A stretch of 64,000 bases of DNA from Paenibacillus humicola (GTDB lineage Bacteria; Bacillota; Bacilli; Paenibacillales; Paenibacillaceae). The stretch is from positions 2,444,501 to 2,508,500 of the forward strand of contig NZ_JAQGPL010000001.1 in NCBI RefSeq assembly GCF_028826105.1, in the 5' to 3' direction. Position numbers and translations under genes: made by a program. Under the pieces are notes generated by a model. The model had not been told where the DNA came from and searched no databases. It saw nothing but the letters and a program-made list of their open reading frames with translations. Positions 11,095 to 64,000 of this stretch are shown here, piece after piece. Each line of letters opens with the position of its first letter. Position 1 is the stretch's first letter.

Positions 11095-11108
11095 CGAAAA
11101 ACCGATTT

Positions 11109-11156
11109 GAAAAGGGGTGGAGCGGTGGTTGGATCGCCGCTTCGCCCCTTTTCCTT
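11109..11156 (+). terminator. attenuating hairpin between binding protein and permease genes
   Basis: AAAAGGGG pairs with CCCCTTTT across an inner AGCGG/CCGCT stem. The run after the stem is only TTTTCC, so read-through into the permeases is likely. It probably reduces permease transcription relative to the binding protein. Confidence 0.65.
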
Positions 11157-11197
11157 CATTAATCATGTGCAATCGTTCAATACAAGGAGGGTTCGTC

Positions 11198-13047: not shown

Positions 13048-13083
13048 GCCATACAAAATTTGAACGACGAAAGAGATGATTTG

Positions 13084-13998: not shown

Positions 13999-14044
13999 GG
14001 CGCGGCGCTTGGATCAAACCAATTCGAAAGGCGGGGGCGGAGAA

Positions 14045-14770
14045 ATGGCGCACGCGGTAAAGCTGGCGGAAAATTTCTATGTTGTTGCGGGCGACAAGCT
14101 GACTCATCCTTGGGACGCCAGCGCCTATCTGTTCACAGGCGGCGAGCCTGCGCTCGTCGACTGCGGAAGCTCGGAAGGCTATCCGACGCTGAGAGAAAAT
14201 TTGGCGTCGCTCGGGGTAAAGCCGGGCGACATCCGCGCGGTTTATGCGACGCATGGCCACTGGGACCATCTGTCCGGGTTCGCGGCGCTTCGGGAAGAAA
14301 GCGGCGCAAAGCTCTTTATCCACGCGAACGACCGGCTGCAGACGGAGAACGGCGATCCGGAACGGACCGCCGCCTTCCTGTACGGCATGCCGTTTCCGCC
14401 GGCGAAGGCGGACGGTACGCTGGAAGAGGGGGACTCGGTCCGGGCCGGCTGTTATGAGCTCGAGGTCATCCATACGCCGGGTCATACGCCCGGGAGCGTT
14501 TCTTTTCGGTTCCGCTCGCCCGTCGGAACGATCCTTATCGCAGGGGATACGATGTGGGGCGGGTTTCACCCGAAGGTCGGGTCCGACCTGGACGATTGGG
14601 GCGCGTCGCTCGACAAGCTGCTGGCGCGCGATTTCGACCTGATGACGTTCGGCCATCTGCATCCGACGCTTGTGTACGACGCGAAAGCGAAGGTGGAGGA
14701 AGCGCGGCGCCAGCTCGGCACCTACTTGAACCCGTGGTTCAAGCCGTTCCATGAAACATTCCGCTATTGA
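14045..14770 (+). CDS. metallo-beta-lactamase-fold hydrolase
   Basis: About 241 residues. The signature ATHGHWDHLSG supplies His70, His72, Asp74 and His75; further ligands are in HTPGHTPG, GDTMWGG and FGHLHP. The fold hydrolyses thioesters, lactones or phosphoesters using two metal ions. The substrate here is unknown; a lactone or sugar ester from the same pathway is possible. ATG 14045 is chosen because a purine-rich GGCGGAGAA stretch precedes it. It sits between the aldolase and the alpha-mannosidase on the same strand, so co-expression is likely. Confidence 0.8.
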   Translation: MAHAVKLAENFYVVAGDKLTHPWDASAYLFTGGEPALVDCGSSEGYPTLRENLASLGVKPGDIRAVYATHGHWDHLSGFAALREESGAKLFIHANDRLQTENGDPERTAAFLYGMPFPPAKADGTLEEGDSVRAGCYELEVIHTPGHTPGSVSFRFRSPVGTILIAGDTMWGGFHPKVGSDLDDWGASLDKLLARDFDLMTFGHLHPTLVYDAKAKVEEARRQLGTYLNPWFKPFHETFRY

Positions 14771-14940
14771 ATGGCTAGCGATTCGAATGAACGGTGTGCG
14801 TGGTTGCTTGACTGTTTACACGGCTGCACCGTACATGAGCCGTTCGATCCATTCGATTGGCCGCCTTTTTGAACGATGTAGCGAGAAGCCCGCCCCGGCG
14901 GACGAAAAACCAATTGAGCGAAAAGAGGGGATTCGCGTAT

Positions 14941-17364
14941 ATGAAGCACCGCAAACTGTACATGATCGGCAACGCCCATCTCGATCCCGTCTGGCTGTGG
15001 CAGTGGCAGGAAGGGTTCCAGGAGACGAAAGCGACCTTCCGTTCCGCGCTCGACCGGATGAAGGAGTACGACGATTTTATTTTCACGAACAGCTCGGCGG
15101 CCAATTACGAATGGGTCGAGAAGAACGATCCGGCCATGTTCGAGGAGATCCGCGAGCGGATCAAGGAAGGACGCTGGCAAATCGTCGGCGGCTGGTGGGT
15201 GCAGCCGGACTGCAACATCCCGGGCGGCGAATCGTTCGTGCGGCAGGGGCTGTACGGGCAGCGGTATTTTCACGAGAAATTCGGCGTGACGGCGAAGGTC
15301 GGCTACAACGTGGACAGCTTCGGCCATCACGGCATGCTGCCGCAAATCCTGAAGAAAAGCGGCATGGACTATTACATCATGATGCGTCCGATGCCGAACG
15401 AGAAGGGGCTGCCTTCTCGTTTGTTTCATTGGGAGTCCGACGACGGCAGCCGGGTGCTGGCGTTCCGCCTTCCGTTCGAATACTGCACATGGGGCAAGGA
15501 TCTGGAGAAACACGTCCGCAGGTGTGTAAGCGAGATGAAAGAACCGTTTAACGACCTGATGGTCTTCTTCGGCGTCGGCAACCATGGCGGCGGTCCGACG
15601 AAAGAAAATATCGAAAGTCTGAAGCGGATGAACGCGCGGCCGGATTTTCCGGAAATCGTGCCGGCCGGGCCGAACGACTTTTTCGCGGACGTCGAGCGCA
15701 AAGGACTGCCGATTCCGGTCGTCCACGACGACCTGCAGCATCATGCGAGCGGCTGCTACGCGGCGCATTCCGGCATTAAGCTGTGGAACCGCCAGGCCGA
15801 GAACAAGCTGATCGCGGCGGAGAAGTGGTCCGCCATCGCGCAGCGGGTGACCGGCCAGCCGTACCCGGACGATTTTCACCGCGCGTGGAAAAACGTGCTG
15901 TTTAACCAGTTCCACGACATTTTGGCAGGGACGAGCCTGGAATCGGCTTATGAAGACGCCCGGAATATGCACGGGGAAGCGATGAGCATTGCCGACCGGA
16001 ACCTGAACTACGCGGTCCAATCGCTGTCCTGGAACATCAATATCGAACAGGCCGAGGGCATGAAGCCGATCGTCGTGTTTAATCCGCACGCGTGGAACAG
16101 CCGCGTTAACGTCGAGCTCGAAATCGGCGGCATCAAGGAAACGACGATTCTCGTCGACGAGACGGGCAAGCAGGTGCCGTACCAGACGGTGCAGCCGGAG
16201 GCGACCTCGGGCGGCCGGTTCCGGCTCAGCTTTATCGCCGATCTGCCGCCGATGGGCTACCGCGTGTACAAGGTGCTGCCGGAATCGAAGGAAGCCCGTG
16301 CCGGGGAACCGATCGCGGCGACCGACGTATCGCTCGAGAACGACTCTTTACGCGTCGAGTTCGACCCGGAAACGGGCTTCATCACGAGCCTGTTCGACAA
16401 GAAGGCGAACTACGAGGTGTTTCGCGGCCCCGGCGCGCGCCCGGTCGTCATCGAAGACCGCTCCGATACGTGGAGCCACAACGTGTTCCATTTCAACAAC
16501 GCGATCGGCGAATTTAAGGCGACCGGCGTCCGCCTCGTCGAGCACGGCCCGGTGAAATCGGTCGTCCGCGTGACGAGCGAATACGGCAGGTCGGCACTGG
16601 TGCAGGATTTTACGCTGTACCGCGAGCTCGGCTGCATCGACGTCGCCGTAACGGTCGATTGGCGCGAGCATTTCAAAATGCTGAAGCTCGTGTTCCCGGT
16701 CAATCTGGTGTTTACGAAGCAGACGTACGAAATTCCATACGGCTTCAAGGAGCGGGAGCATAACGGCGAAGAGGAGCCGGGCCAAAGCTGGGTCGACTAC
16801 GGCGGCACGCAGCGGGACGGCGGCCCCGTATACGGGCTGTCGCTGATAAACGACGCCAAATACAGCTACAGCATCATGAATAAGGAGCTGGCGATGACGG
16901 TGCTGCGCAGCCCGATTTACGCCCACCACGATCCGCTCGTGCCGGATCCCGGCGGTCATTACTCGTTTATCGACCAGGGCATTCAGCGTTTTCGCTACCG
17001 GCTGCTTCCGCACGAAGGAAGCTGGGAGGAGGCCGGAACGGTACGAAGTGCGCTCGAGCTGAATCAGCGGCCGGTGACCGTGATCGAGACGTATCATGAA
17101 GGCAGGCTCCCGCAGAAAGCGTCTTATGCCGGCGTCGAACAAAGCGGCATTATCGTGAGCGCCGTGAAAAGGGCCGAAGATAACGACGATCTGATTGTCC
17201 GCTGTTATGAAACGGACAAACGGGCGGTGCGCGCTTCGATTTCGCTACCACTTGCGGGACGCACGATCGAAGCGGATTTCGCACCGTGCGAAATCAAGAC
17301 GTTCCGCGTACCCGCCGATCCGTCGCAGCCCGTCACCGAAACAAACCTGATCGAGTGGGAGTGA
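14941..17364 (+). CDS. GH38 alpha-mannosidase
   Basis: About 807 residues, the size of bacterial GH38 enzymes. The zinc-binding GNAHLDPVW (His13, Asp15) opens the catalytic domain and YNVDSFGHHG holds the likely nucleophile Asp125. HHASGCYAAHS near 276-286 marks the helical side of the active site, and a C-terminal beta-sandwich region follows. The enzyme removes alpha-linked mannose from oligosaccharides, retaining configuration. No signal peptide is seen, so it acts inside the cell on imported material. ATG 14941 has AAAAGAGGGG ten bases upstream. It is followed six bases later by a beta-mannosidase, a pairing that points to mannose-containing glycans. Confidence 0.9.
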   Translation: MKHRKLYMIGNAHLDPVWLWQWQEGFQETKATFRSALDRMKEYDDFIFTNSSAANYEWVEKNDPAMFEEIRERIKEGRWQIVGGWWVQPDCNIPGGESFVRQGLYGQRYFHEKFGVTAKVGYNVDSFGHHGMLPQILKKSGMDYYIMMRPMPNEKGLPSRLFHWESDDGSRVLAFRLPFEYCTWGKDLEKHVRRCVSEMKEPFNDLMVFFGVGNHGGGPTKENIESLKRMNARPDFPEIVPAGPNDFFADVERKGLPIPVVHDDLQHHASGCYAAHSGIKLWNRQAENKLIAAEKWSAIAQRVTGQPYPDDFHRAWKNVLFNQFHDILAGTSLESAYEDARNMHGEAMSIADRNLNYAVQSLSWNINIEQAEGMKPIVVFNPHAWNSRVNVELEIGGIKETTILVDETGKQVPYQTVQPEATSGGRFRLSFIADLPPMGYRVYKVLPESKEARAGEPIAATDVSLENDSLRVEFDPETGFITSLFDKKANYEVFRGPGARPVVIEDRSDTWSHNVFHFNNAIGEFKATGVRLVEHGPVKSVVRVTSEYGRSALVQDFTLYRELGCIDVAVTVDWREHFKMLKLVFPVNLVFTKQTYEIPYGFKEREHNGEEEPGQSWVDYGGTQRDGGPVYGLSLINDAKYSYSIMNKELAMTVLRSPIYAHHDPLVPDPGGHYSFIDQGIQRFRYRLLPHEGSWEEAGTVRSALELNQRPVTVIETYHEGRLPQKASYAGVEQSGIIVSAVKRAEDNDDLIVRCYETDKRAVRASISLPLAGRTIEADFAPCEIKTFRVPADPSQPVTETNLIEWE

Positions 17365-17369
17365 GCGGC

Positions 17370-20123
17370 ATGACGGTGCAGCGCATCAGCTTAAACGGCA
17401 GCGATTGGCTGCTGAAGGATTTTGTCGGCGAGGACTGGATCTGGCGCAATTCGGAAAAGCCGGATACCCGCGACGTGCGCTGGTGGCGGCCGGGGACCGT
17501 TCCGGGTACGGTGCTTCACGATTTATGGGTCAACGGAGAGGTGCCTGACCCCTATTTCGAGCGTAACAGCCTGCTCGTCGAGTGGGTGCCGCAGAGGACG
17601 TGGCTGTACCGCAAAACGTTCTCGGTTCCCGAGTCCCTGCGCGGCCGTCGGGTGAAGCTGCAATTCAAGGGTGTCGATTACGCCGCGCAGTTTTTTTTAA
17701 ACGGGGTGAAGCTTGGCGAGCATGAAGGCATGTACACGCCGGCGGAATTCGAGGTCGCGGATCTGCTCCTATACGGCGGCGACAATTTGCTGGCCGTGGT
17801 GATCGGGAAAGCGCCCGACGAGCAGCCGCAGGTGAGCAAAACCGAGTACGTCCGCACGCATAAAAGCCGGATGACGTACGGCTGGGATTTTTGCCCGCGC
17901 ATGATTCATCAAGGGATTTGGGACGATGTCTGCCTCGACGTCACGGGTCCGGCCGCTATCGAGGACGTGTATGTGCGGCCGGAGCTTCGGGACGATTTTT
18001 CCGCCGCGCGGCTGTCGGTATCGGCAGCCGTCTCCTCGCCGGAGCGCGTTTGGGCGCAGGTAAAAACGGTCATCCGCTTCGGAGGCTGCGATATCGCGTC
18101 GCACGAAGCGGCGTATACGCTGGAGCCGGGCATGAACCGGCTGAACGCTGCCGTGACGCTGGACCGCCCGAAGCTGTGGCAGCCGAACGGCTCAGGTTCG
18201 GGAGCTCCTCATCTCTATGAAGCGATTGTGAACGTTTCGGTTCCGGATGAAACGGAGCCCAGCCGCGGACTGTCGCTGTCGGCATCGCGAACGACGGCGT
18301 TCGGCATCCGCAAAGTCGAGTTCATGCGCAACGATACGCCCGACCTTGAAGCGCGCCCATATACACTCGTCGTGAACGGCCGCAAAACGTATATCAAAGG
18401 CTGGAACTGGGTACCGATCGACGTCATGTACGGCGTCGAGCGTCCCGCGAAGCTGGAGCGGCTGCTGCAGCTGGCAAAGCGAGCCGGCGTCAACATGCTG
18501 CGCGTCTGGGGAGGCGGTCTAATCGAAAAAGACGCCTTCTACGAGCTGTGCGACCGGTACGGCATTATGCTCTGGCAGGAGTTCATTCAATCCAGCTCGG
18601 GCATCGCCAACAAGCCGAGCGAGAAGCCGGAATTTCTGGCGATGATGGAAGGCGAAGCCCGGCAGATCGTGCCGCGCAGGCGGAATCATCCCTCGCTCGT
18701 CATCTGGTGCGGCGGCAACGAGCTGCAGGATAAGGACGAAGCGCCGCTGGACGACCGCGAGCCGGTGCTCGGCATTTTGCGGCGCGTGGCGGAGGAGCTG
18801 CATCCGGACGCGCTGTGGCTGCCGACTTCGCCGTCGGGACGGCTGTTTCTGAACAGTCTGGACAACATCGAGCGGGATCCGGACGGGCTGCACGACGTAC
18901 ATGGTCCTTGGGAGCACCAAGGGCTTCAGGGGCAGTACGAGCTGTACAACAGGGGAACATCGCTGCTGCAAAGCGAGTTCGGCGTTGAAGGAATGACGAA
19001 TTTAAAGACGCTGCGCCGCACGATATCGGCAGCAAACGAGTGGCCCGCCAGCAAGGACAACCCCGTCTACTTCCATCGCGGCGCATGGTGGAATAACGAA
19101 CCGCTGGTAACGGCGTCGTTCGGCGGGGAAATCCGCGGCCTCGCGCAATTGATCCGCGCCAGCCAATTTCTTCAGGCCGAAGGGCTGCGTTATGCGGTCG
19201 AATCCCATCTCCGGCGCCGCTGGCGGAACAGCGGCACGCTGCCGTGGCAGTTTAACGAGCCGTTTCCGAATGCCTACTGCACGTCCGCACTCGATTATTT
19301 CGCGATGCCGAAGCCGGCGTATTACGCGGTGGCGCGGGCTTACCGCCCCGTAACCGCGACGGCGTCCTTCGCGGCGCAGGCTTGGGCCGGACGCGAAGTC
19401 TTCGCAGCCGAGCTATGGGCGGCCAGCTCGCTCGGCCGCATTTTGGAAGGCGTACGCGCCCAATGGACCATTGCCGGGGCGAGCGGGCGCGTTTATGCAT
19501 CGGGCTCCACGCCGGCGGCGAACGTTCCCGCGGACTCGTCCGTCCGTCTGGCGCATATCGAACGCCCGCTTTCCCATATCGGTGAAGAGCTGTTTTTCCT
19601 CGATCTCGAGCTGTTCGGCACGGACGGGGAGCGAATGGCAGACAACCGCTACCTCTTTACGGCCGCGGGGAATCTGGCGCCGATGCTGCATATGCCGGAG
19701 GCGGCGGTCGAGGTCAGCATGACTGAGGCGAAGCCGGAAGGAAACGGCGAAATTGCCTGCAAGCGCAGCGAAATTGCCGGCAAGCGCAGCGATATCGCCG
19801 AATGCCGCTCTGATGAAACCGCCGGCACCGAAAGCCTGGTTAACGGCAGCGGGGAAGCTGCGGAGGCGGCGGCTGCCGCCCGGGATTCCGCCTGTGCACA
19901 AATCGAAATCGTCAACACGGGCGATTGCGCCGCGCTGCTGCTTCATCTCGAACGGGCCGGCGAACCGGACGCCGCCGGCTGCGTATATTTTTTGGACAAC
20001 GATTTCACGCTGCTGCCGGGGGAGAAGCGCGTCATCGCCGCCGAGTGGCGGGACGTTCCCGAAGGGCTGCGGCAGGTCGAATTGTCCGGCTGGAACATCG
20101 CGCTCCAAACGGTTTCATGCTAG
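17370..20123 (+). CDS. GH2 beta-mannosidase
   Basis: About 917 residues, no signal peptide. The order is GH2 sugar-binding domain (RTWLYRKTFSVPE onward), immunoglobulin-like domain, TIM barrel with WNWVPID and RVWGGGLIEKD, and C-terminal beta domains. The likely acid/base is Glu451 in WCGGNE and the likely nucleophile Glu536 in QSEFGVEGM; the IWCGGNE form is typical of beta-mannosidases rather than beta-galactosidases. ATG 17370 has GGGAGTG just upstream. Around residues 793-815 there is an odd repetitive polar insert, EIACKRSEIAGKRSDIAE, between two C-terminal domains. The enzyme would release mannose from beta-mannosides such as Man-beta-1,4-GlcNAc inside the cell. Confidence 0.9.
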   Translation: MTVQRISLNGSDWLLKDFVGEDWIWRNSEKPDTRDVRWWRPGTVPGTVLHDLWVNGEVPDPYFERNSLLVEWVPQRTWLYRKTFSVPESLRGRRVKLQFKGVDYAAQFFLNGVKLGEHEGMYTPAEFEVADLLLYGGDNLLAVVIGKAPDEQPQVSKTEYVRTHKSRMTYGWDFCPRMIHQGIWDDVCLDVTGPAAIEDVYVRPELRDDFSAARLSVSAAVSSPERVWAQVKTVIRFGGCDIASHEAAYTLEPGMNRLNAAVTLDRPKLWQPNGSGSGAPHLYEAIVNVSVPDETEPSRGLSLSASRTTAFGIRKVEFMRNDTPDLEARPYTLVVNGRKTYIKGWNWVPIDVMYGVERPAKLERLLQLAKRAGVNMLRVWGGGLIEKDAFYELCDRYGIMLWQEFIQSSSGIANKPSEKPEFLAMMEGEARQIVPRRRNHPSLVIWCGGNELQDKDEAPLDDREPVLGILRRVAEELHPDALWLPTSPSGRLFLNSLDNIERDPDGLHDVHGPWEHQGLQGQYELYNRGTSLLQSEFGVEGMTNLKTLRRTISAANEWPASKDNPVYFHRGAWWNNEPLVTASFGGEIRGLAQLIRASQFLQAEGLRYAVESHLRRRWRNSGTLPWQFNEPFPNAYCTSALDYFAMPKPAYYAVARAYRPVTATASFAAQAWAGREVFAAELWAASSLGRILEGVRAQWTIAGASGRVYASGSTPAANVPADSSVRLAHIERPLSHIGEELFFLDLELFGTDGERMADNRYLFTAAGNLAPMLHMPEAAVEVSMTEAKPEGNGEIACKRSEIAGKRSDIAECRSDETAGTESLVNGSGEAAEAAAAARDSACAQIEIVNTGDCAALLLHLERAGEPDAAGCVYFLDNDFTLLPGEKRVIAAEWRDVPEGLRQVELSGWNIALQTVSC
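19744..19812 (+). repeat. short in-frame tandem repeat inside the beta-mannosidase gene
   Basis: Three imperfect copies of a 24-base unit encode E-I-A-x-K-R-S-type octapeptides, the third more degenerate. The unit is in frame, so it adds a charged linker rather than breaking the gene. Slippage or local duplication is the likely origin. Confidence 0.6.
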
Positions 20124-41128: not shown

Positions 41129-43216
41129 ATGAAGCTCGTGTACGACCAGAAGGACGCCGTCATCCGATTCGGCGCAGAGCAAATCAAGAAAAGCCTGACA
41201 AGCGGCGGACAATTTGTCGTCGAGCAGTTCAGCGGGCGGGGAAAGCCGGCGGATCCGGCCAAAGGCATCGTCATCGACAAGCAGTCCGCGCGGAGGGGGC
41301 AGCCGCCCAAATATGAACCGCAGTCGTTCCGGATTGTCCGCGCGAAGGATTTGATCCGGGTCGAAGGCTCGGATTCGCGCGGCGTCATGTACGGATGCCT
41401 CGAGCTCGCCGAACGGATCGCCCGCGGGGCGGTGCCGGGAGACGGGGAAGAAATCCGCCAGCAGCCTGCGCTCGGCATCCGCGGCATCAAATACAATTTG
41501 CCGTTTGCGCCGTTTGAAGCGGGAGACCCGTTCGTGCAGAACGAGGCGACCTGCATGGATTTGGATTATTGGAAGGCTTATATCGACATGCTGGCGCTGA
41601 ACCGGTACAACTGCCTCAGCTTGTGGTCGGAGCATCCGTTTCACCTCATGGTCGTGTCGCCGAAGTTCCGGGCGGCCAACCCGTTCAGCGATATTGAGAT
41701 CGACCGCAATATCCGGTTTTTCCGCGAGGTGTTCCGGCATGCGGAAAGCCGCGGAATCGACATTTATCTGTTCACCTGGAATATTCGGCTCATTCCCGAA
41801 GCCGCCGTCGGGCTCGGTCTTCCCGAAGCGGCCGGGGATGTCGGCGATATGTACGGCGAGCTGATCCACCGCGTCGGCCAGCCGCTCAACCGGTTCCGCG
41901 CGCAGTCGGAGGTCGTGCGGGACTATTTTCGGGAGATGGTGCTGCAGCTGCTCATTACGTACCCCGAGCTGAAAGGGCTCGGAACTTCGGCCAGCGAGTG
42001 GATGGACGGAAGCGGGCACGAACGGGAGCAGTGGATCGTGGAAACCTACGTGGAGGCGATCAAGCAATCGGGCCGCGACATTCCGTTCATTCACCGGACG
42101 AACATGCAGAACGCCGGCAAGGAGATCAAGGAGATGGTGCAGAGCCGGTTCGACCCGGACCGCTTCTATATCAGCTGGAAATATTCGAACGCGCACTGCT
42201 ATTCGCACCCGGAGCCGCAGTTCGAGAAGCTGTGGGGAGCCTGGGAAGGCATCGACCTGGAGTCGACGCGAATCTACTATACGGTTCGCAACGACGACGT
42301 ATTCGCTCACCGCTGGGGGGACCCGGATTATGTGCGGGCGTACGTGAAAGGCATGCTGAAGCCGTACGTGAAAGGCTTTTATTGGGGCGCGGACGGCTAT
42401 GTGTGGGGCAAAGACTTTCAGCACGTCGACTACGGCCATCATACGTGGCGGTACGATTTTGAACGGCACCTGTTCCAGTTTCAGCTATGGGGCCGGTTAT
42501 CCTACGATCCCGACGCGAGCGAGGAGATATGGAGCCATCTGCTGAAGCCGCATTACGGTCCGCAGCATGCGACCTTGTTCCTCGAAGGACTTCGCCAGGC
42601 GTCGAAAATCATCCCGGCGGTCAACCGCCTGTTCTGGATCGATTACGATTTTCAGTGGCATCCGGAAAGCTGTTTGTCGCAGGTGAGCGGCTTCAAAACG
42701 ATCCTTGACTTCGTCGATGCCGCGCCGATGCCGGGCGTCGGCGTCATGAGCATCGCCGAATACGCCCAGGCGGAGCATAACGGAGAGCTGGAAAGCGCTG
42801 CGGCCGCTTTCGCCGAAACGCCGCCGGACATTATCCGCATCTTGTCCGAAGCCGCAGCCGGGACGAAAGCGGCCGCATCCAGGCTCGAAGAGGAGCTCGG
42901 GGAATTAAGAGGGGGCCATGCGGAATGCACCCTGTACGATTTGCTGGCCTACGTGGAAATGGGCCGGTATTACGAGCGCAAGTTTACCGCGGCGCTGTAC
43001 CTGAACCGCTACGCGGCGAGCGGCGACGCCCGTTTTAAAGAGCAGGCGGCGCAGCAGCTGGAGCAGGCGGTGCACAACTGGGAACGGCTCGGCCACTATT
43101 GGAGCCTGCACAACAAGCCGTATTACATGGCGCGCGTCAAGCAAACCTTCGGTTACCCGTATTACTTGGACGATGTAAAGCGGGATGTGGAGCTTGCCCG
43201 CGCATTCGAAGGGTAA
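41129..43216 (+). CDS. uncharacterised glycoside-hydrolase-like protein (GH20/67-type N-domain and TIM barrel)
   Basis: About 695 residues, no signal peptide. The first ~120 residues look like the zincin-like domain that precedes GH20, GH67 and GH84 barrels: SDSRGVMYGCLELAERI is its typical end. A barrel-like domain follows, with YNCLSLWSEHPF, the candidate catalytic Glu290 in GTSASEW, RWGDP (396-399), GFYWGADGYVW and LWGRLSYDPDASEEIW. The last 200 residues are helical. It is a distant paralogue of the protein at 58140, sharing Glu290/Glu303, WGDP and LWGRL-Y-PDA. The substrate is unknown; alpha-glucuronidase-like chemistry is one possibility. ATG 41129 has GGGAGG seven bases upstream. It is monocistronic. 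Confidence 0.72.
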   Translation: MKLVYDQKDAVIRFGAEQIKKSLTSGGQFVVEQFSGRGKPADPAKGIVIDKQSARRGQPPKYEPQSFRIVRAKDLIRVEGSDSRGVMYGCLELAERIARGAVPGDGEEIRQQPALGIRGIKYNLPFAPFEAGDPFVQNEATCMDLDYWKAYIDMLALNRYNCLSLWSEHPFHLMVVSPKFRAANPFSDIEIDRNIRFFREVFRHAESRGIDIYLFTWNIRLIPEAAVGLGLPEAAGDVGDMYGELIHRVGQPLNRFRAQSEVVRDYFREMVLQLLITYPELKGLGTSASEWMDGSGHEREQWIVETYVEAIKQSGRDIPFIHRTNMQNAGKEIKEMVQSRFDPDRFYISWKYSNAHCYSHPEPQFEKLWGAWEGIDLESTRIYYTVRNDDVFAHRWGDPDYVRAYVKGMLKPYVKGFYWGADGYVWGKDFQHVDYGHHTWRYDFERHLFQFQLWGRLSYDPDASEEIWSHLLKPHYGPQHATLFLEGLRQASKIIPAVNRLFWIDYDFQWHPESCLSQVSGFKTILDFVDAAPMPGVGVMSIAEYAQAEHNGELESAAAAFAETPPDIIRILSEAAAGTKAAASRLEEELGELRGGHAECTLYDLLAYVEMGRYYERKFTAALYLNRYAASGDARFKEQAAQQLEQAVHNWERLGHYWSLHNKPYYMARVKQTFGYPYYLDDVKRDVELARAFEG

Positions 43217-54191: not shown

Positions 54192-55769
54192 ATGTCCATC
54201 CGAAAGCGTTTCAGTATGCTCACGGCAATGGTGGTCCTGCTCGGCATGACCGCCGCTTGCAGCGGAGGCGGCGGCCAGCCGGCAAACGGCGGAGCGCCCG
54301 CGCCGGGCAATTCCGGAACGAACGCCGGAACACAGGGGAATGCGAGCGCCGATTCGGGCAAACCGCTGAATCTGCAGTTTCTCGTTCCATCCTACGCCGA
54401 TGCGCCCAACATGAACGACGAGTATTGGACGGAATGGCAGAAACGGACGAACACGAAGCTGGATGTCGAATGGGTCCCGTCCGGCGACTACGACACGAAA
54501 TTCGACCTGGTGCTTGCATCCGGCAATTTGCCGGAAATTATCGTCTCGACCAGCCTGACCCGGCCGACGCTGATCAATGCGATCAACCAGGGCGCATTTT
54601 GGGACCTTACCCCGTTCCTCGGGGACTTCAGCAAGTATCCCAACATGAAAAACAACAGCGGTCCGAACGTGTGGAATTATATGAAGCTGGACGGAAAAAT
54701 TTACGGGCTGCCGCGCAACCGGCCGCAAATCGACCTGGGGATCAAAATCCGCAAGGACTGGCTGGACAAATTCAAGCTGCCGATTCCGAAGACGCTCGAC
54801 GAATATGCCGCCGATCTGAAAACGATCGTGAACGGCGACCCGGACGGCAACGGCAAGAAGGACACGATCGGCATTATCGGCGGCGGCTTCCTATTGGCCG
54901 ACGGCGACGACACGTTCCTTAGCGCATTCGGCGGGCTGAAGCCGGTTTACGACAAAGACGGCGGCATGATCAACAGCAGGCTGACGCCGAATTATACGAG
55001 CATGGTGGAATGGTTCCGGAAGCAGTATGCGGACGGCATTCTCGCCAAGGAATTCTCGGCGATCAAGAAGACGCAGGCCGAGGAGCTGTTCTCGACCGGG
55101 CACGCGGCGTCGTACGTGCGCAACATTTGGCGCGACTACACGTGGGAGCAGGAAAACAAGAAAACGCAGCCGGGCGCGCAGATTATTACGCTTCCGCCGA
55201 TGCAGGGACCGGGCGGCGTATCGGTCAGCCTGGCCAGCCCGACCTTCGGCGCCTTCTATATTTCGAAGAAGGTTCCCGAGGAGAAGGTAAAGCAAATTCT
55301 CGATTATTTCGAGAAAACGACGACGAAAGAGTATACGGATTTTAACTATTACGGCATCGAGGGCGTGCATCATACGGTGGTGGACGGCCAGCCGCAGCTG
55401 ACCGACCTCGGCGTGAAGCAGGTGACGACGAATGCGCAGCAGGTGTTCTCGCTCGCTTTCAACAACGAGATGAAGGTCGTCAATCCCGCGGCGCCGAAGG
55501 CGTACAACGACGCCAAGCTGAAGGATGTGGCGGTTTACGGCAAGGTCGGCACGCTCAATCCGTTCGCCATCATCAGCTCGAATACGTGGAGCACGACCTG
55601 GCCGAAATACGAGAACGACTGGGAGGCTATGGTCACCAAGGCGATCGTGGGGCAGATTTCGATGGACGATTATAAGAGCTATGTGGATAAGCTGAACAAC
55701 AATCCCGATTTCAAAAAGGCGTATCAGGAATTCGCCCAGAGCTACAAGGTGTATTTCGGACAACAATAA
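54192..55769 (+). CDS. extracellular carbohydrate-binding lipoprotein of the glycan locus
   Basis: About 525 residues with a lipoprotein signal ending MTAAC, then a Gly/Pro/Asn-rich linker and a large two-lobed binding domain (NDEYWTEWQKRTN, DLVLASGNLPEIIVS). It resembles the binding protein at 2479 in size and style. It would capture the oligosaccharide for the permeases at 60870 and 61840. ATG 54192 is taken, with GGGGAG 11 bases upstream; GTG 54180 lies inside that site. A cre-like site precedes it, so expression is probably glucose-repressed. Confidence 0.88.
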   Translation: MSIRKRFSMLTAMVVLLGMTAACSGGGGQPANGGAPAPGNSGTNAGTQGNASADSGKPLNLQFLVPSYADAPNMNDEYWTEWQKRTNTKLDVEWVPSGDYDTKFDLVLASGNLPEIIVSTSLTRPTLINAINQGAFWDLTPFLGDFSKYPNMKNNSGPNVWNYMKLDGKIYGLPRNRPQIDLGIKIRKDWLDKFKLPIPKTLDEYAADLKTIVNGDPDGNGKKDTIGIIGGGFLLADGDDTFLSAFGGLKPVYDKDGGMINSRLTPNYTSMVEWFRKQYADGILAKEFSAIKKTQAEELFSTGHAASYVRNIWRDYTWEQENKKTQPGAQIITLPPMQGPGGVSVSLASPTFGAFYISKKVPEEKVKQILDYFEKTTTKEYTDFNYYGIEGVHHTVVDGQPQLTDLGVKQVTTNAQQVFSLAFNNEMKVVNPAAPKAYNDAKLKDVAVYGKVGTLNPFAIISSNTWSTTWPKYENDWEAMVTKAIVGQISMDDYKSYVDKLNNNPDFKKAYQEFAQSYKVYFGQQ

Positions 55770-55795: not shown

Positions 55796-58114
55796 ATGGC
55801 AAATTGGAACATTCCAGGTAACGGAGGTCCGGGTCGCAAACGGGGACATGGATCGTATTTTTCCAGACTGATCGGACTCGGCTGCATCTCCTTTTGCATT
55901 CCGGTCATATTGGCCAGTGCGGTCTACTATCAGTTCTCCATGCACCGGGTCAAAGAGCAGATGCTGACCGGCAGCCAGTCGTCCCTTATCATCATGCGCG
56001 ACCGGGCGGAGCGCATGCTGCAGGACATCGAACAGGAATCCCACCATTTGGCCGTTGACCCGCTCCTGACGGGCATTTTTACGAAGCCGGAGCTTGCCGG
56101 CAATCTGTTCTGGCATCAGAAAATATTGGACCAGATCGAAGTGGTGAAAAACACCGACGGCTTCATCGATGAAATTTATTACTACAACACCGTCGACCAT
56201 GCGGTGCTGTCCAACCGGTACGGCGTCATCGCCAAAGACGCCTACCGGTACCGGGACGACATCGACCGGACGATTGCCGGAAGCGAGCCCTCAGAGTGGG
56301 CCTACTTGCCGGAAGCGCAGCGCGACGGCGATTTGACGTTCGCCCGCCTGCTTCCGGCGCCGGCCGGCGGCCGGCCGCAAGGGGCGCTTGTGTTCCAGGT
56401 CGAAACGTCCGCGATCAGCAAATTTCTGGAGTCCGACACGTACATTTTGCCCGGCCGCCAAAGCTTGTTTTTTATCAATTACGTCGGTCTTGACAAGCAG
56501 GCGGATAAAATCCTCGATGTCCATTCGGCGTTAAACCGGCTGCCGGGGATCGAGACGATCCTGAAGACCGATAAGAACGAGGACCGTTTTACGGCCGAGG
56601 GGATCGACGGAAAGCCGGCGACGTACATGTATTTGAAAACCGTATACGGCCGCACTTACGTCAATGTGGTGCCCAACAGCGCCATGGCCGGCCAGCTGAA
56701 CTGGATCCGGGGCGTCACGCTGCTGGTGCTGTTTATATTTCTTGCGTTCGGCGCGGCGATCACCTATTTCAATTCGCGGAGGGCGTACAACCCGATCGAG
56801 CAGCTGATCCGCCACAGCAAGTCGCTCAGCGCCCGCCAGCTGCAGTCGAAGGAAAACGAATTCGATTATTTGAAGGAATGTCTCGACTTTCTGAACACGG
56901 AGACCGAGAAGCTGTACGGCTACATGGCCCACATTCAGCCGACGCTGCGGGAGCTCTGCCTGCGGCAGCTTGTAACCGGCGATTACGTGCGCAAGGAGCC
57001 GCTGCTGAGGGACTGCGAGCAGTACGGCATCTCGGTACAGGCGGCGAGCGTCGTCGTCATCGTGGATACCGACAATATCGGGAAGGATAAACGGTTCCAT
57101 CCGGAGGAGCAGGGCGTCATTGCGTTCGCCATTTCCAATGTCATGGAGGAGCTGCTGCGGGAGGAAGAGGATATCCGCGGATACGTGTTCCCGTTCAAGC
57201 GCAGGGGCGTGGCGCTGCTGCAATTTTTGAACGTCAAGGATCAAGCGGTTATGCTGCGGCGCACACTGAAATACGCCCGCTCCGTATGCGAATCGCTCGG
57301 CAGCTACCTACGGATGGACGTGTCGGCCGGAATCGGCCGGCTGTACCTGCATATCGACGATGTTCCGGTATCGTACAAGGAGGCGGAGACGGCCCTGCAA
57401 TACCGAATCTTCAAGGATATGAATCCGGTATTGTATATTGAGGACCTGGAAATGGAAAAGAAACACGCGATGTTCCGCTACCCCAGAGGGCAGGAGGCGG
57501 CTATGATCGCCGCATTGGAACGGGGAGAACCGCAGGAGGCGGCAGCCAGTCTGAATGCGTTCGCCCAGCACCTGAGCAGCTCATCGTGCAGCTTCCTGCA
57601 TCAAAGCTACTATATGCTGCTGTCGGCCATTATGAGAAGCCTGGAAATGCAGGAGGTCAGCGTGCTCGATATATTGGGGCATAACCTGTACGGCCAGCTT
57701 CAAACGAAGCAGACGTTCGAAGAAATTTACGACTGGTTCGCGGAAACCCTTTTTCCGCTTTATCTGTGGATGACGGACAGACACCGCAGCGAATCGGAGC
57801 AGTCGGCGGTGCAGAAGGTATGCCGGCATATCAGGGAAAATTGCGGCAGCGACCTGTCGCTGGTGCAGTGCGCGGAGCTGGTGGGCATGAGCCCTTCACA
57901 CTTGAGCCGGCTGTTCAAAAAAGAAATGGGCGTCAATTACCTCGAGTTCGTCGTGGAATGCAAGGTGAGCGAGGCGCGAAGGCTGCTGACGGAAACCGAC
58001 CGCAGCGTCAGCGAAATCGCGAACGCGATCGGCTATTCGGAGCGAAACCTAAACCGGATTTTTCAGCGGTATTTTCATATGTCGCCGAGCCTGTTCAGGC
58101 TGAGGCAGCGATAA
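55796..58114 (+). CDS. membrane-anchored AraC family regulator (YtdP/YesS-like)
   Basis: About 772 residues. Two membrane helices (near residues 27-47 and 300-325) bracket an extracellular sensor domain of about 250 residues. The intracellular part carries a GGDEF-like or linker region and a C-terminal AraC DNA-binding domain (QCAELVGMSPSHLSRLFKKEMGVNYLEF, then EIANAIGYSERNLNRIFQRYF). Such one-protein receptors read an external sugar, often with the binding protein, and switch on the neighbouring transport genes. ATG 55796 has GGGGGAGG upstream. It lies 26 bases after the binding protein and 25 before the glycosidase-like gene. Confidence 0.88.
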   Translation: MANWNIPGNGGPGRKRGHGSYFSRLIGLGCISFCIPVILASAVYYQFSMHRVKEQMLTGSQSSLIIMRDRAERMLQDIEQESHHLAVDPLLTGIFTKPELAGNLFWHQKILDQIEVVKNTDGFIDEIYYYNTVDHAVLSNRYGVIAKDAYRYRDDIDRTIAGSEPSEWAYLPEAQRDGDLTFARLLPAPAGGRPQGALVFQVETSAISKFLESDTYILPGRQSLFFINYVGLDKQADKILDVHSALNRLPGIETILKTDKNEDRFTAEGIDGKPATYMYLKTVYGRTYVNVVPNSAMAGQLNWIRGVTLLVLFIFLAFGAAITYFNSRRAYNPIEQLIRHSKSLSARQLQSKENEFDYLKECLDFLNTETEKLYGYMAHIQPTLRELCLRQLVTGDYVRKEPLLRDCEQYGISVQAASVVVIVDTDNIGKDKRFHPEEQGVIAFAISNVMEELLREEEDIRGYVFPFKRRGVALLQFLNVKDQAVMLRRTLKYARSVCESLGSYLRMDVSAGIGRLYLHIDDVPVSYKEAETALQYRIFKDMNPVLYIEDLEMEKKHAMFRYPRGQEAAMIAALERGEPQEAAASLNAFAQHLSSSSCSFLHQSYYMLLSAIMRSLEMQEVSVLDILGHNLYGQLQTKQTFEEIYDWFAETLFPLYLWMTDRHRSESEQSAVQKVCRHIRENCGSDLSLVQCAELVGMSPSHLSRLFKKEMGVNYLEFVVECKVSEARRLLTETDRSVSEIANAIGYSERNLNRIFQRYFHMSPSLFRLRQR

Positions 58115-58139: not shown

Positions 58140-60821
58140 ATGAATAAACGGCTAGACGCAATCATCGTAAGACGGAGCTCGGACGCCGTCGCCGGCAGCG
58201 AACCGGCAGGCTGGGCGGCAAGCCGGCTCGCGGCGGTCTGCGCGGAGCGTGGCATCGCCGTCCGCGAGTCGGAGTCGCCGGACGGCAGCGAGGCCGAGCG
58301 GCTGACGCTCGTCATCGCCGGACCAGAATCGGCGCATATCGCCGGCGGGATGACGGAGGAACGGATTCCGCGGGAGGCGGAATCGTTTTGCCTGCACCGG
58401 TATGCGGCGGGCGAGCGCCAAATCGTGCAGGCGGCGGCGCGGGATGCGCGCGGGCTTGTTTATGCGGTGCTGGAGCTGGCGGACCGGATTCGCCTCGCGG
58501 ACGATCCGCTGGAGGAGCTGTCCCGGATCGGATGGCTGGAGGAAAAGCCGTCATCGCCCGTGCGCAGCATAAACCGCCTGTTCGTCAGCGACGTCGAAGA
58601 CAAGCCGTGGTTTTACGACGAGCAGTTCTGGGACGATTATTTGACCGAGCTGGCGGCGCATCGCTTCAACCGGCTGCACCTTGCCCTCGGGATGGGCTAC
58701 GATTACGGGCATGACCCGGGCGTGCAGGACAACTATTTCTGTTTTGCCTATCCGTTCCTGCTCACGCTTCCGGACTATGAGGTGCGGGCGAAGGGGCTTG
58801 AGCCGGGCGAGACGGAACGAAATCTCGCGATGCTGCGGCATATTGCCCGGGAAGCGAAACGCAGAGGCATTCACTTCCAGCTCGGGCTGTGGAATCACGG
58901 CTACGATCCGAGCGAAAGCCCGCATGTCCGTTACCCGATCGAGGGCATCAAGGAGGAGACGCATGCGCGGTACTGCCGGGACGCGGTCCGGACGCTGCTG
59001 CAGGCCTGCCCGGACATCGACGGCGTCACGATCCGGACGCATTACGAGGGCGGCATCCCCGAACCGGCAGAACCGTTCTGGCAGGAGGTGTTTGCGGGCA
59101 TCGCCGAATGCGGACGCCGGGTGGAAGTGGATCTGCACGCCAAAGGCGTCGACTGGGACCGGCTGAATATGGCGATCGAGGCCGGACTGCCCGTCATCGT
59201 TTCGCCCAAATTTTGGGCGGAGCATATGGGACCGCCTTATCATCAGGCCGCCATCCGGCCGCTTGAGCTCCCTACCGAGCGGACGGACCGGCCGGATATG
59301 ATGTCCATCACCGCAACGTACCGCCGCTTCACCCGGTACGGCTACGCCGATTTCCTGCGCGAAGACCGGAAATACGGCGTCCTGTACCGGATCTGGCCCG
59401 GCACGCAGCGGGTGCTGCTGTGGGGAGACCCGGCGATGGCGGCGGGCTACGGGCGGGCCGGCACCTTCGGCGGCGCGCTCGGCGTGGAGCTGTGCGAGCC
59501 GCTTACGTTCAAGGGACGCAAAGGCTCCGGCACGGAAGGCGGCCGCGACCCATACAAGGATCCCGCGCTGCGGCTCGGCGGGCAGGAGTGGAGGAAATAC
59601 GGGTACAGCTACCGGTTATGGGGACGGCTGCTGTATAACCCGGACGCCGACCCCGAATCGTGGCGTCGGTATTTGCGGGCCGAATTCGGCGGCGGCGCGG
59701 AGGCGTGCGAGCGGGCGCTGGCCCATGCCAGCCGGATTTTGCCGCTGCTGACGGCGGCGCATCTTCCGTCTGCGGCCAACAATGCGTTCTGGCCGGAGAT
59801 GTACGCGAATATGCCGATCGTCAAAACCGGAAAAAAGACGGGCTACGATTTCGATACCCTGGAGCCGAAGACGTTCGGCGCCGTCAGTCCGCTCGATCCC
59901 GCACTGTTTTACCGGATCGACGACTTTGCGGACGACCTGTTGAAAGGCGATCTCAGCGGCAAATATTCGCCGGCCTGGGTCGCGGATCGGCTTGATGAGC
60001 TGGCGGCCGAGGCCGAACGCGGCCTGGCCGACGCGGAAGCGCTGGTGCGGGACCGCGAATCCGCCGTCTACCGCCGCTGGTCCGTCGATGCGGCCGTGCA
60101 GTCGGGACTGGGCCGTTTCTTCGCGCATAAGCTGCGAGCCGGCATCCTGTACGCGCTGTTCGAACGGACGGGCGGCAGGGAGCTGCTGGAAGAGGCGCGA
60201 AGCGAATACCGCTCCGCGCTCGGGCACTGGAAACGAATCGTCGCCATGACCGTGGACGTCTACCGGGAAAATATTACGTTCGGCTACGTGCCTTATATGC
60301 GGGGGCATTGGAGCGACCGCACGGCTGCAATCGAAGAAGATATCGCCGCGATGGAGCGGGTGCTCGAGGCCGCGGACCGTGTCTTAACGCCGCAGGTACA
60401 GGAGGCGGCTTCAGTGCAGGCGGGAACAGGAAGTACCGCTGCCGGGGTGCCCGTAACGGCGGCGGCGGTTATGAAAGCCGGCAGCCCGGACGCCGCCAGG
60501 CCGGAGATCGTCCACACGCCGCCGGTGTCGTTCCGCCGCGGAGAGCCGGTACGCCTGAGCGCTGCGCCCGATGGGGACGCCGGCGGTCTGCGGGTGCTCC
60601 TTCATTACCGGCATGCGGAGCAGTCGGAGGCTTGGAGACAGGCGGAAATGGAGCGGCAAGGGGCGGCGTTCGCCGCCGAAATCCCGGCCGAATACACCGG
60701 CGCACCCTATCCGCTCGTATATTTCTTCGAGCTCAAGGACGCTTCGGGGCGCGCCTGGCTGGCTCCCGGGTTTGACGATACGCTGTCGGGTCAGCCGTAT
60801 TATGTGCTTCGTCAGGTTTAA
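58140..60821 (+). CDS. uncharacterised glycoside-hydrolase-like protein, paralogue with C-terminal extension
   Basis: About 893 residues and no signal peptide. The first ~130 residues form a zincin-like domain (AAARDARGLVYAVLELADRI), followed by a barrel-like domain with FNRLHLALGMGYDYGHD, candidate catalytic Glu303 in RTHYEGG, WGDP (428-431) and LWGRLLYNPDADPESW. It shares these motifs in order with the protein at 41129. It then has a helical region and an additional C-terminal beta domain of about 110 residues (after PQVQEAASVQ), absent from the other. ATG 58140 is chosen over ATG 58122 because AAAGGGATGG lies before it. It sits between regulator and permeases, so it very likely processes the imported glycan; the linkage is unknown. 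Confidence 0.75.
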   Translation: MNKRLDAIIVRRSSDAVAGSEPAGWAASRLAAVCAERGIAVRESESPDGSEAERLTLVIAGPESAHIAGGMTEERIPREAESFCLHRYAAGERQIVQAAARDARGLVYAVLELADRIRLADDPLEELSRIGWLEEKPSSPVRSINRLFVSDVEDKPWFYDEQFWDDYLTELAAHRFNRLHLALGMGYDYGHDPGVQDNYFCFAYPFLLTLPDYEVRAKGLEPGETERNLAMLRHIAREAKRRGIHFQLGLWNHGYDPSESPHVRYPIEGIKEETHARYCRDAVRTLLQACPDIDGVTIRTHYEGGIPEPAEPFWQEVFAGIAECGRRVEVDLHAKGVDWDRLNMAIEAGLPVIVSPKFWAEHMGPPYHQAAIRPLELPTERTDRPDMMSITATYRRFTRYGYADFLREDRKYGVLYRIWPGTQRVLLWGDPAMAAGYGRAGTFGGALGVELCEPLTFKGRKGSGTEGGRDPYKDPALRLGGQEWRKYGYSYRLWGRLLYNPDADPESWRRYLRAEFGGGAEACERALAHASRILPLLTAAHLPSAANNAFWPEMYANMPIVKTGKKTGYDFDTLEPKTFGAVSPLDPALFYRIDDFADDLLKGDLSGKYSPAWVADRLDELAAEAERGLADAEALVRDRESAVYRRWSVDAAVQSGLGRFFAHKLRAGILYALFERTGGRELLEEARSEYRSALGHWKRIVAMTVDVYRENITFGYVPYMRGHWSDRTAAIEEDIAAMERVLEAADRVLTPQVQEAASVQAGTGSTAAGVPVTAAAVMKAGSPDAARPEIVHTPPVSFRRGEPVRLSAAPDGDAGGLRVLLHYRHAEQSEAWRQAEMERQGAAFAAEIPAEYTGAPYPLVYFFELKDASGRAWLAPGFDDTLSGQPYYVLRQV

Positions 60822-60869: not shown

Positions 60870-61820
60870 ATGCAGGCGACGGCCGGAACGGCGGAGAACG
60901 TTCAAACGGGAACGCGGGGAGGCCTCTGGAGGCGGATCGTCCGGTACAAAGCGCTATACGCGCTTGCCGCGCCGGGCATCGTTTATTTTATCGTTTTCAA
61001 GTTTCTGCCGATGTGGGGGCTTGCGCTCGCGTTTCAGGAATACAACCCGTATGCGGGCATTTTCGGAAGCGATTGGGTCGGGCTTAAGCACTTTCGCGAG
61101 CTGTTCACCGACCACAATTTTTATCTGATGCTGCGCAACACCTTTGCAATTAACATCATCGGCCTGGTCTTTATGTTCCCGGTTCCGATCGTGCTGTCGC
61201 TCATGCTGAACGAAATCCGGCACGAGGTGTTTAAACGGTTTAACCAGTCGGTCGTGTACCTGCCGCATTTTCTGTCCTGGGTCGTCGTGGCCAGCCTGAC
61301 GTTCTTCATTCTGTCGACAGACGTCGGCATCGTGAATAAGATCATCGCCGGAACGGGGCATGAGCCGATCGCGTTCCTTTCCAATCCGAATTACTTCTGG
61401 GGGCTCATCACGCTGCAAACGATGTGGAAGGAGGCAGGCTGGGGCACGATCATTTTCCTCGCGGCGATGGCGGGCATCGACCCGACGCGCTACGAGGCGG
61501 CGGTTGTGGACGGTGCCAGCCGCTGGCGGCAAATTTGGCATATTACGCTGCCGGCGATCCGCCCGACGATTCTTATTCTGCTCATTCTGCGGCTCGGCCA
61601 GATGGCGGACGTCGGCTTCGAGCAGGTTCTGCTCATGCTCAATCCGCTCGTCACGTCGGTCGGCCAAGTGTTCGATACGTATGCGTATACGATCGGCATC
61701 CTGCAGGGCGAGATCAGCACAGGCGTAACGGTCGGCATGTTTAAAGGCGTCGTCGGCCTCGTGCTGGTGCTGGCTTCCAACTATGCGGTGAAGAAAATGG
61801 GCCACGAGGGCATTTACTAG
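60870..61820 (+). CDS. carbohydrate ABC transporter permease, LplB type
   Basis: About 316 residues, six helices. The EAA loop is EAAVVDGASRWRQIWHITLP; the opening FKFLPMWGLALAFQEYNPYAG is typical of LplB-type permeases. It is one channel subunit for the binding protein at 54192. ATG 60870 has AGGAGGTGA upstream. The next permease follows after 19 bases. An ATPase is again absent. Confidence 0.9.
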   Translation: MQATAGTAENVQTGTRGGLWRRIVRYKALYALAAPGIVYFIVFKFLPMWGLALAFQEYNPYAGIFGSDWVGLKHFRELFTDHNFYLMLRNTFAINIIGLVFMFPVPIVLSLMLNEIRHEVFKRFNQSVVYLPHFLSWVVVASLTFFILSTDVGIVNKIIAGTGHEPIAFLSNPNYFWGLITLQTMWKEAGWGTIIFLAAMAGIDPTRYEAAVVDGASRWRQIWHITLPAIRPTILILLILRLGQMADVGFEQVLLMLNPLVTSVGQVFDTYAYTIGILQGEISTGVTVGMFKGVVGLVLVLASNYAVKKMGHEGIY

Positions 61821-61839: not shown

Positions 61840-62721
61840 GTGAGCTTTGTCGCCACCAAAAAATTAACGGCATTCGATTACGTCAATTACACGATTTTGA
61901 CGGTCATCTCGCTCGTTTGCATTTTCCCGTTCATTTACGTGTTCAGCGTTTCGTTCACCGACCCGAAAGTGTATGTCCCGCTGAAGTTTTATTTGTTTCC
62001 GGATCAGTGGTCGCTGAGCGCGTACCGGTATATTTTATCGACGAACAGCTTTCTGAACGCGCTGAAGAGCACGGTGTTCATTACCGTCATCGGGACCGCG
62101 CTCAATCTGGCCGTCTCGTTCACCTTCGCGTACGTGCTGACCAAGAAAGAGGTGCCCGGCCGGTCGATTTTGATGGGGGCGGTCATCTTCACCCTCGTGT
62201 TTAACGCCGGCATTTTGCCGAGCTATCTGCTGGTGAAGGAGATGCACCTGCTCAATTCGTATTGGGCGCTGATATGGCCGACGCTGACGAGCGCATGGAG
62301 CCTGATCGTCATCAAAGGCTTCCTGGAATCGCTCCCCGCCGAGCTGGAGGATTCCGCCCGAATCGACGGCTGCTCGGACTTCGGCGTCTTCTTCCGGATG
62401 GTCATCCCGCTGTCGATGCCGGCAATCGCCGCGTTTACGCTTTTTTTCGCCGTCAGCCATTGGAACACGTACTTCAACGCGCTCATTTATTTGTCCGATT
62501 CGCGCAAATGGACGCTCCAGGTGCTGATCAAGTCGCTCGTCATCGACTCCGACTCCAACGGCGTCGGCCAGGCCGGAGCGGGCGGCGACGACCGCGTGCT
62601 GCCGCAGGAAACGATCCGCATGGCGGCCATCGTGCTGTCCATGGCGCCGATTCTCGTCGTGTACCCTTTTCTGCAGAAGCATTTCGCCAAAGGCGTCATG
62701 CTGGGATCGGTCAAAGGTTAG
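61840..62721 (+). CDS. carbohydrate ABC transporter permease, YtcP type
   Basis: About 293 residues, MalG-like. The EAA loop is DSARIDGCSDFGVFFRMVIP, with a cysteine in place of the usual alanine or glycine of the EAA loop, and it ends KGVMLGSVKG. GTG 61840 is supported by GGGAGGG nine bases upstream. It ends the operon: binding protein, AraC regulator, glycosidase-like enzyme, two permeases. A strong terminator follows. Confidence 0.88.
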   Translation: MSFVATKKLTAFDYVNYTILTVISLVCIFPFIYVFSVSFTDPKVYVPLKFYLFPDQWSLSAYRYILSTNSFLNALKSTVFITVIGTALNLAVSFTFAYVLTKKEVPGRSILMGAVIFTLVFNAGILPSYLLVKEMHLLNSYWALIWPTLTSAWSLIVIKGFLESLPAELEDSARIDGCSDFGVFFRMVIPLSMPAIAAFTLFFAVSHWNTYFNALIYLSDSRKWTLQVLIKSLVIDSDSNGVGQAGAGGDDRVLPQETIRMAAIVLSMAPILVVYPFLQKHFAKGVMLGSVKG

Positions 62722-63520: not shown

Positions 63521-64000
63521 ATGTATACCTTTGCCAATAAAATCGTCTGGGTGACCGGCAGCAGCACGGGCATCGGGAGGGCGGCGGCGATCGAATTCGC
63601 CCGGCATGGCGCCGACGTGATCGTGCACGGCAACCGGAGCGTGCAGCAGGCCGAGGAAGTCGCGGCGGAAATCCGGAAGCTCGGCCGGAACGCAATGCTC
63701 GTCATGGGAGACGTCGGCAGCGCTGCCGAAGTGAAGCGGATGGTCCGGGAAATCGGCACCCGCTTCGACCGGATCGATGTGCTGATGAACAATGCCGGAG
63801 CCCTGATCAAACGGGCGCGGCTGGCCGATCTGGAGGAAGAGCTGTGGGATGAGGTTATGAACGTGAACCTGAAGTCGGTTTACCTGGTGACGAAAGAGGC
63901 GCTGCCGCTGCTTCGGCAAGCCGGGAAAGGCCGCATCATCAACGTCACGTCCGTCGCCGCGCGCAACGGCGGCGGCTTCGGTTCGCTGGCCTACGCCGCA
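63521..64000 (+). CDS. short-chain dehydrogenase/reductase, N-terminal part
   Basis: 160 codons are present and the frame is still open at the end of the window, so the C-terminus is missing. The NAD(P)-binding TGSSTGIGRAAA is near residues 12-23, NNAG near 90-93, and the catalytic serine region is INVTSVAARNGGG. The final YAA before the cut is probably the beginning of the YxxxK motif. ATG 63521 has GAGAGGAGTGA upstream. FabG-like reductases and sugar dehydrogenases share this layout, and the substrate is open. Confidence 0.88.
   Translation, partial: MYTFANKIVWVTGSSTGIGRAAAIEFARHGADVIVHGNRSVQQAEEVAAEIRKLGRNAMLVMGDVGSAAEVKRMVREIGTRFDRIDVLMNNAGALIKRARLADLEEELWDEVMNVNLKSVYLVTKEALPLLRQAGKGRIINVTSVAARNGGGFGSLAYAA

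Follow-up and report, generated by a model that had tools for sequence, protein, structure and literature searches.

Two clades of putative glycosidases beside family GH138 in the genome of Paenibacillus humicola

The stretch of DNA analysed here (the window) comprises 64,000 nucleotides of Paenibacillus humicola and carries two open reading frames, A and B, which an earlier note had described as distant paralogues defining an unassigned glycosidase-like family (Table 1). Both ORFs are present and the motifs quoted for them are in place, i.e. SDSRGVMY, E290, W396 and W454 in A, and RDARGLVY, E303, W428 and W494 in B. No signal peptide was seen by eye in A. The C-terminal beta-sandwich of B (residues about 790-893) weakly matches CBM56 6a6c (E 0.018), and further matches to it lie within other large ORFs from related genomes.

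Table 1. Genes and residues of the A and B loci (positions within the window).
Feature	Positions	Strand	Remarks
A	41129..43216	+	695-aa GH138-related protein, A clade; N-domain, (beta/alpha)8 barrel, helical C-domain
A Glu290 codon	41996..41998	+	after barrel strand 4; hhalign partner is a GH67 Glu
A Ala355 codon	42191..42193	+	column of GH138 Glu361 (strand 6); Ala/Ser/Gly in 142/142 A-clade rows
A Asp389-Asp390 codons	42293..42298	+	after strand 7; candidate second catalytic carboxylate(s)
A WGDP (396-399)	42314..42325	+	loop after strand 7; common to B clade, not GH138-like proteins
Probable lipoprotein sugar-binding protein of importer	54216..55769	+	start 54180 or 54216; named from sequence and place
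AraC-type regulator	55796..58114	+	long N-terminal region
B	58140..60821	+	893-aa GH138-related protein, B clade; extra C-terminal beta-sandwich at about 790-893
B Glu303 codon	59046..59048	+	after strand 4; hhalign partner is the same GH67 Glu as for A
B Glu361 codon	59220..59222	+	column of GH138 Glu361 (strand 6)
ABC permease	60870..61820	+	BPD_transp_1
ABC permease	61840..62721	+	BPD_transp_1
Short-chain dehydrogenase (SDR)	63521..64000	+	continues beyond window end

One of the two genes had been placed in a sugar uptake operon, which is true of B, encoded together with the AraC-type regulator and two ABC permeases; we take the first permease to be LplB-like and the second LplC-like. A is instead flanked by a sulfate permease and an MMPL gene. 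The probable sugar-binding protein has no match in Pfam or NCBIfam. Beyond the window end, beside the B operon (L028 2021-7803), lie the SDR, a CdaR-type sugar-diacid regulator on the opposite strand, glycerate kinase, the permease KdgT and the lactate racemase LarA, and the third B copy of this genome is located downstream of an SDR and a lactonase. A single uronate isomerase and a single GH67 enzyme occur in the genome.

At a distance from both genes, positions 9760-20123 of the window contain sugar ABC transporter, aldolase-like and metallo-beta-lactamase-like genes, followed by a GH38 alpha-mannosidase, a GH2 enzyme and a DeoR-type regulator (GH38 and GH2 named by Pfam, the other genes by sequence). 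This region looks like a mannoside utilisation locus.

The similarity between A and B extends beyond chance, which is ruled out by BLASTP (E 7e-15, 22% identity) and by profile-profile comparison with hhalign (profiles of 54 homologues each, E 3.7e-42, 626 columns), and the two proteins have their best structural match in common. Models predicted from alignments of 54 rows, picked from the best 120 homologues of each protein (pLDDT 91.9 for A and 87.6 for B), matched the GH138 structures 6hzg, 6hze and 6hzf best, by large margins, and in these predicted models the N-domain, the barrel and the helical domain were all covered. Sequence searches of the PDB up to E 10 returned the BPa0997 sequences as the sole match (E 3.4e-12 for A, 0.23 for B). 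The corresponding profiles gave E 1.9e-42 and 8.4e-13 against BPa0997, and 2.6e-46 and 1.4e-29 in hhalign against a profile of GH138-like proteins. The latter set consists of homologues of the L011 protein, from a genome of the same order as that of the window, which scores 1021 bits to the NCBIfam model NF049878 (alpha-d-galacturonidase) and is itself under the cut-off of 1300. The same model was the single NCBIfam family found for A and B, at 106 and 35 bits respectively, which also misses the curated cut-off.

No Pfam family was found for A or B up to E 10. By Pfam, as by the curated cut-off of NCBIfam, the two proteins are indeed “unassigned”. The statement that no other catalytic domain is recognisable agrees with the Pfam result, but a characterised relative does exist, namely GH138. 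A direct match to a characterised family had been named as grounds for giving up the proposal; what we found is clear homology to GH138 but no membership in it.

The kinship of the N-domain with those of GH20, GH67 and GH84, also suggested earlier, is supported by structure, and the A profile aligns with GH84 (52-121, E 1.4e-4) and weakly with GH67 (3-121, E 0.017). In the PDB profile searches with A and B, GH84 and GH67 chains came far behind BPa0997 and matched in the N-domain only; the GH67 mutants E285N and E292A are named among the structural matches of the A model. As neither protein contains a Pfam family and the structural match favours GH138, A or B as a plain GH20, GH67 or GH84 enzyme was dropped.

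A tree of 59 rows, obtained by a quick method with the catalytic columns and BPa0997 left out, and with the long branches between B and GH138-like proteins flagged, separated the GH138-like (13 rows), A-type (31) and B-type (15) proteins with SH-aLRT values of 99, 92 and 100, respectively. A and B do not fall inside the GH138-like clade; the three groups lie on separate sides of branches. Given this split, a single family made up of A and B was dropped. Nor do the two stand alone: the genome of the window has six members, three A-type (the window gene at 41129, C1:1948378 and C1:3046094) and three B-type (the window gene at 58140, C1:2538911 and C1:3094170). The observation behind the earlier note is sound and its reading half right: there are two large clades beside GH138, with GH138-like proteins as a third and with different second carboxylates in A and B, not a lone unassigned family.

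Word-limited searches at E <= 0.001 yielded 615 A homologues and 4342 B homologues, some of which may belong to neighbouring clades. Among the best 120 of each, the names given by the source are hypothetical, uncharacterized, or taken from the N-terminal domain only. The B profile matches 17 of 398 genomes phylum-wide and 10 of 148 family-wide, most matches being partial, so the B clade appears patchy. A literature search of titles and abstract openings found nothing on either clade. In a MAG contig (L062 7534-9607) an A-family gene is broken into two ORFs.

Active-site residues were tallied over the best 120 of the 615 (A), 4342 (B) and 6092 (GH138-like) homologues together with the members from fetched loci, 428 rows in total, which were assigned by best profile. 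Removing 40 near-copies (at least 98% across the barrel) left 388 (146 A-type, 124 B-type and 118 GH138-like), and the fractions below exclude gapped rows (0 to 5 per column). The Glu following strand 4 is invariant in all three groups (141/141 A-type, 118/118 GH138-like, and 123/123 B-type, one column on in B). In the model of A, E290 lies 3 residues past the end of the strand, and counting along the A-BPa0997 sequence alignment leads to E294 of BPa0997, which is presumably catalytic. The conserved Glu and the GH138 fold of the predicted models support the proposed glycosidase-like role.

E290 and E303, listed as one landmark in the earlier note, stand one column apart in MAFFT, and separate hhalign runs pair both with one and the same Glu of GH67, which we take to be the general acid. 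This pairing is weak (probability 76% for A and 85% for B): the alignments end on the paired Glu or no more than five residues away from it, and the GH67 alignment of the GH138-like profile ends before its own strand-4 Glu. Because hhalign stops at or just after strand 4, the register with GH67 does not extend to strands 6 and 7.

The clades part at strand 6. Glu361 of GH138, replaced by Ser in 6hze and 6hzg (molecule name E361S), is conserved as Glu in all 118 GH138-like rows and all 123 covered B-type rows, and in none of the 142 A-type rows (Ala 136, Ser 4, Gly 2). After strand 7, on the other hand, the D389/D390 columns hold Asp or Glu in 143/143 A-type rows, against Gly (120), Ala (2) or Asp (1) followed by Thr (120) or Ser (3) in B-type rows, and Ala/Thr/Ser followed by Asn (108) or Asp (10) in GH138-like rows. 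It would be wrong to conclude that GH138 has no acid after strand 7, given that Glu397, located in the loop of the A-clade Asp pair but 2-3 residues further on, is invariant in the GH138-like rows (118/118); the contrast between A and GH138 concerns the exact columns only. The column of A D422, after strand 8, is likewise Asp or Glu in 143/143 A-type rows. E366 of A was considered as a substitute for the lost Glu and rejected, as it occurs in 119/142 rows and neither of the other A types in the window's genome has it.

A Lys in strand 6 is invariant throughout (142/142 A, 123/123 B, 118/118 GH138-like). The strand-5 Arg is invariant in A (142/142) and GH138-like rows (118/118), while B has His in 121 and Arg in 2 of 123 rows. 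An Arg and a Lys have roles in GH67 as well. Many further barrel residues are invariant among the 54 rows, and in the predicted models many invariant residues lie at strand ends. The WGDP motif, cited earlier as a family landmark, is indeed common to the A and B clades but does not occur in GH138-like proteins, which have R-Y/F/W-G-S/A-P there.

With the A profile, 53 loci were found in named genomes, and neighbour clusters were formed by single linkage from the 51 with the gene called, one member of each cluster being scanned; names for the permease, binding-protein and AraC clusters were taken from their sequences, and the loci are not independent, many being from Paenibacillus. The Pfam scan of neighbours covered 73 of the 111 cluster representatives and yielded mostly single-member families. 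A-type and B-type genes occur together in 10 of the 53 loci and are adjacent in some (L038, L039, L049). The clusters operon-linked to A-type genes in the 51 loci were ABC permease (24), GHL6 (10), MR_MLE (9), D-2-hydroxyacid dehydrogenase and RraA-like (7 each), GH42, GH29, xylose-isomerase-like TIM barrel and FAD oxidoreductase (5 each), and a tartronate-semialdehyde-reductase-like cluster (4). It is the distant A types, and not A itself, whose loci account for the RraA and FAD cases and for most of those with the hydroxyacid dehydrogenase.

Orthologues of a particular MR_MLE protein of the window's genome (62-72% to that copy) are found in 7 loci, all among the 10 that combine A-type and B-type genes, and in the window's genome this copy and the second B gene are about 12 kb apart; three more distant MR_MLE proteins share 26-28%. 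The best NCBIfam models for the MR_MLE protein are talarate/galactarate, arabinonate and gluconate/galactonate dehydratase, with scores far below every curated cut-off. With 15 MR_MLE matches in the genome, a certain closeness would arise by chance.

The GHL6 genes (“hypothetical glycosyl hydrolase 6”; e.g. in L029, L071, L073 and L081) likely encode another uncharacterised enzyme of the pathway of A. A small Rieske-type protein and an amidohydrolase are encoded side by side near A or B copies (L029 8417-9940, L030 8468-9988, L025 15696-17207); the Rieske protein was named by NCBIfam, and Amidohydro_2 was shown for the L025 copy. Some loci contain PhyH-like genes, named by sequence only.

Building on the homology, fold, clade structure and residue patterns observed, we suggest that A and B, as members of two large uncharacterised clades beside GH138, may be cytoplasmic exo-glycosidases. 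The terminal residue that they free would be a sugar acid, in all likelihood a uronic acid in alpha linkage. We give this reading a probability of slightly under one half. Oligosaccharides would enter through ABC importers, A and B would remove the terminal sugar acid in the cytoplasm, acting from the chain end, and the released acid would pass to a sugar-acid dehydratase, an aldolase and the glycerate pathway. The cytoplasmic location is proposed because no signal peptide was seen. The strand-4 Glu (E290 in A, E303 in B) would serve as general acid, and the strand-5 Arg (His in B) together with the strand-6 Lys would hold the substrate carboxylate. B may couple E303 with E361 in the GH138 fashion. 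As A has no strand-6 Glu, its second carboxylate must differ if A is a glycosidase; Asp389 and Asp390 are the best candidates, and Asp422 is another. It is possible, albeit with the odds somewhat against it, that in the A clade (A plus the other A types in the window's genome) the second catalytic carboxylate left strand 6 for strand 7, with the general acid and the clamp on the substrate carboxylate retained.

We favour an exo-alpha-uronidase because of the fold, the conserved acid, the Lys/Arg pair and the sugar-acid neighbourhood; the choice of uronic acids as substrate class rests on the neighbours and on homology at 15-20% identity. BT0997, which we take to be a GH138 member, points the same way: its reported target is the alpha-1,2-linked GalA of rhamnogalacturonan-II (RG-II; PMC7939467). 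The loss in A of the very Glu mutated to Ser in 6hze and 6hzg, and the weak GH67 pairing, count against the uronidase reading. Other substrates are also indicated, since some loci have Rieske, amidohydrolase, PhyH-like or GH29/GH42 genes. It is conceivable, if rather unlikely, that A and B are GH138-fold glycosidases acting on non-uronic sugars or small-molecule glycosides, with the conserved Lys/Arg in another role. The great divergence of both clades from GH138, the His in place of Arg at strand 5 in B, the GH29, GH42, GHL6, Rieske and amidohydrolase neighbours and the missing GH28 would fit such enzymes. The recurrent sugar-acid dehydratase, and the diacid regulator, glycerate kinase and KdgT past the window, do not, and the near relatives GH138, GH67 and GH115 are described as acting on uronic acids, while GH20 and GH84, near in fold, are not. 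The Ala, Ser or Gly in the Glu361 column could also mean that A-clade proteins do not catalyse glycoside hydrolysis at all, being binding or regulatory proteins or carrying out other chemistry, with B alone an enzyme. We consider this improbable, as E290 and the acidic 389/390 pair are complete in all covered A-clade rows, many other barrel residues are invariant among the 54 rows, and GH67 and GH115 are reported to combine one fold with different catalytic residues (PMC3879575).

A and B could also be true GH138 enzymes acting on chain A of RG-II, GH138 being their best structural and sequence match. Such an identity is nevertheless very improbable in view of the NCBIfam scores, the separate clades and the missing Glu361 of A. 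Moreover, no match to polygalacturonase GH28 was found in the window's genome, which makes pectin or RG-II doubtful as the source, and GH138 is reported to co-occur with GH137, GH139, GH142 and GH143 mainly in Bacteroidetes (PMC7922503). RG-II was therefore dropped as a likely substrate, and as a natural source it is unlikely for this genome.

The placement of two large unstudied clades beside GH138 points to a class of substrates and to particular residues that can be tested. If the carboxylate shift is true, at least two glycoside hydrolase families beside GH138 are missing from Pfam, and uptake loci of the ABC type in Bacillota would owe their missing uronidases to such families. So clean a division of the clades by their second carboxylate would make a compact example of how catalytic residues can change inside one fold, which is also reported for GH67 versus GH115 (PMC3879575).

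Compared with known systems, GH20 and GH84 hexosaminidases share the N-domain and the barrel fold with A and B; in sequence the N-domain alone matches, no catalytic Pfam domain of either family occurs in A or B, and the structural Z is far under that to GH138. GH115 alpha-glucuronidase is very distant, with no GH115 chain among the PDB sequence matches of A, B and their profiles. For GH67 alpha-glucuronidase, profile alignments with A, B and the GH138-like proteins take in the N-domain and the barrel's first half (probability 76-92%), but the alignment with A and B ends at strand 4 and the Glyco_hydro_67 Pfam domain is not found in them. GH138 (BPa0997, PDB 6hze/6hzf/6hzg; BT0997) resembles A and B in domain layout, barrel, strand-4 Glu and strand-6 Lys, in a WGRL/WxRYAWNPD-type motif and, for B, in Glu361. 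A and B differ from it in sharing only 15-20% identity, with scores far under the family cut-off, and in having WGDP. A lacks Glu361 and has its Asp pair after strand 7, where GH138-like proteins carry Glu397 2-3 residues on, and the C-terminal beta-sandwich is a feature of B's own.
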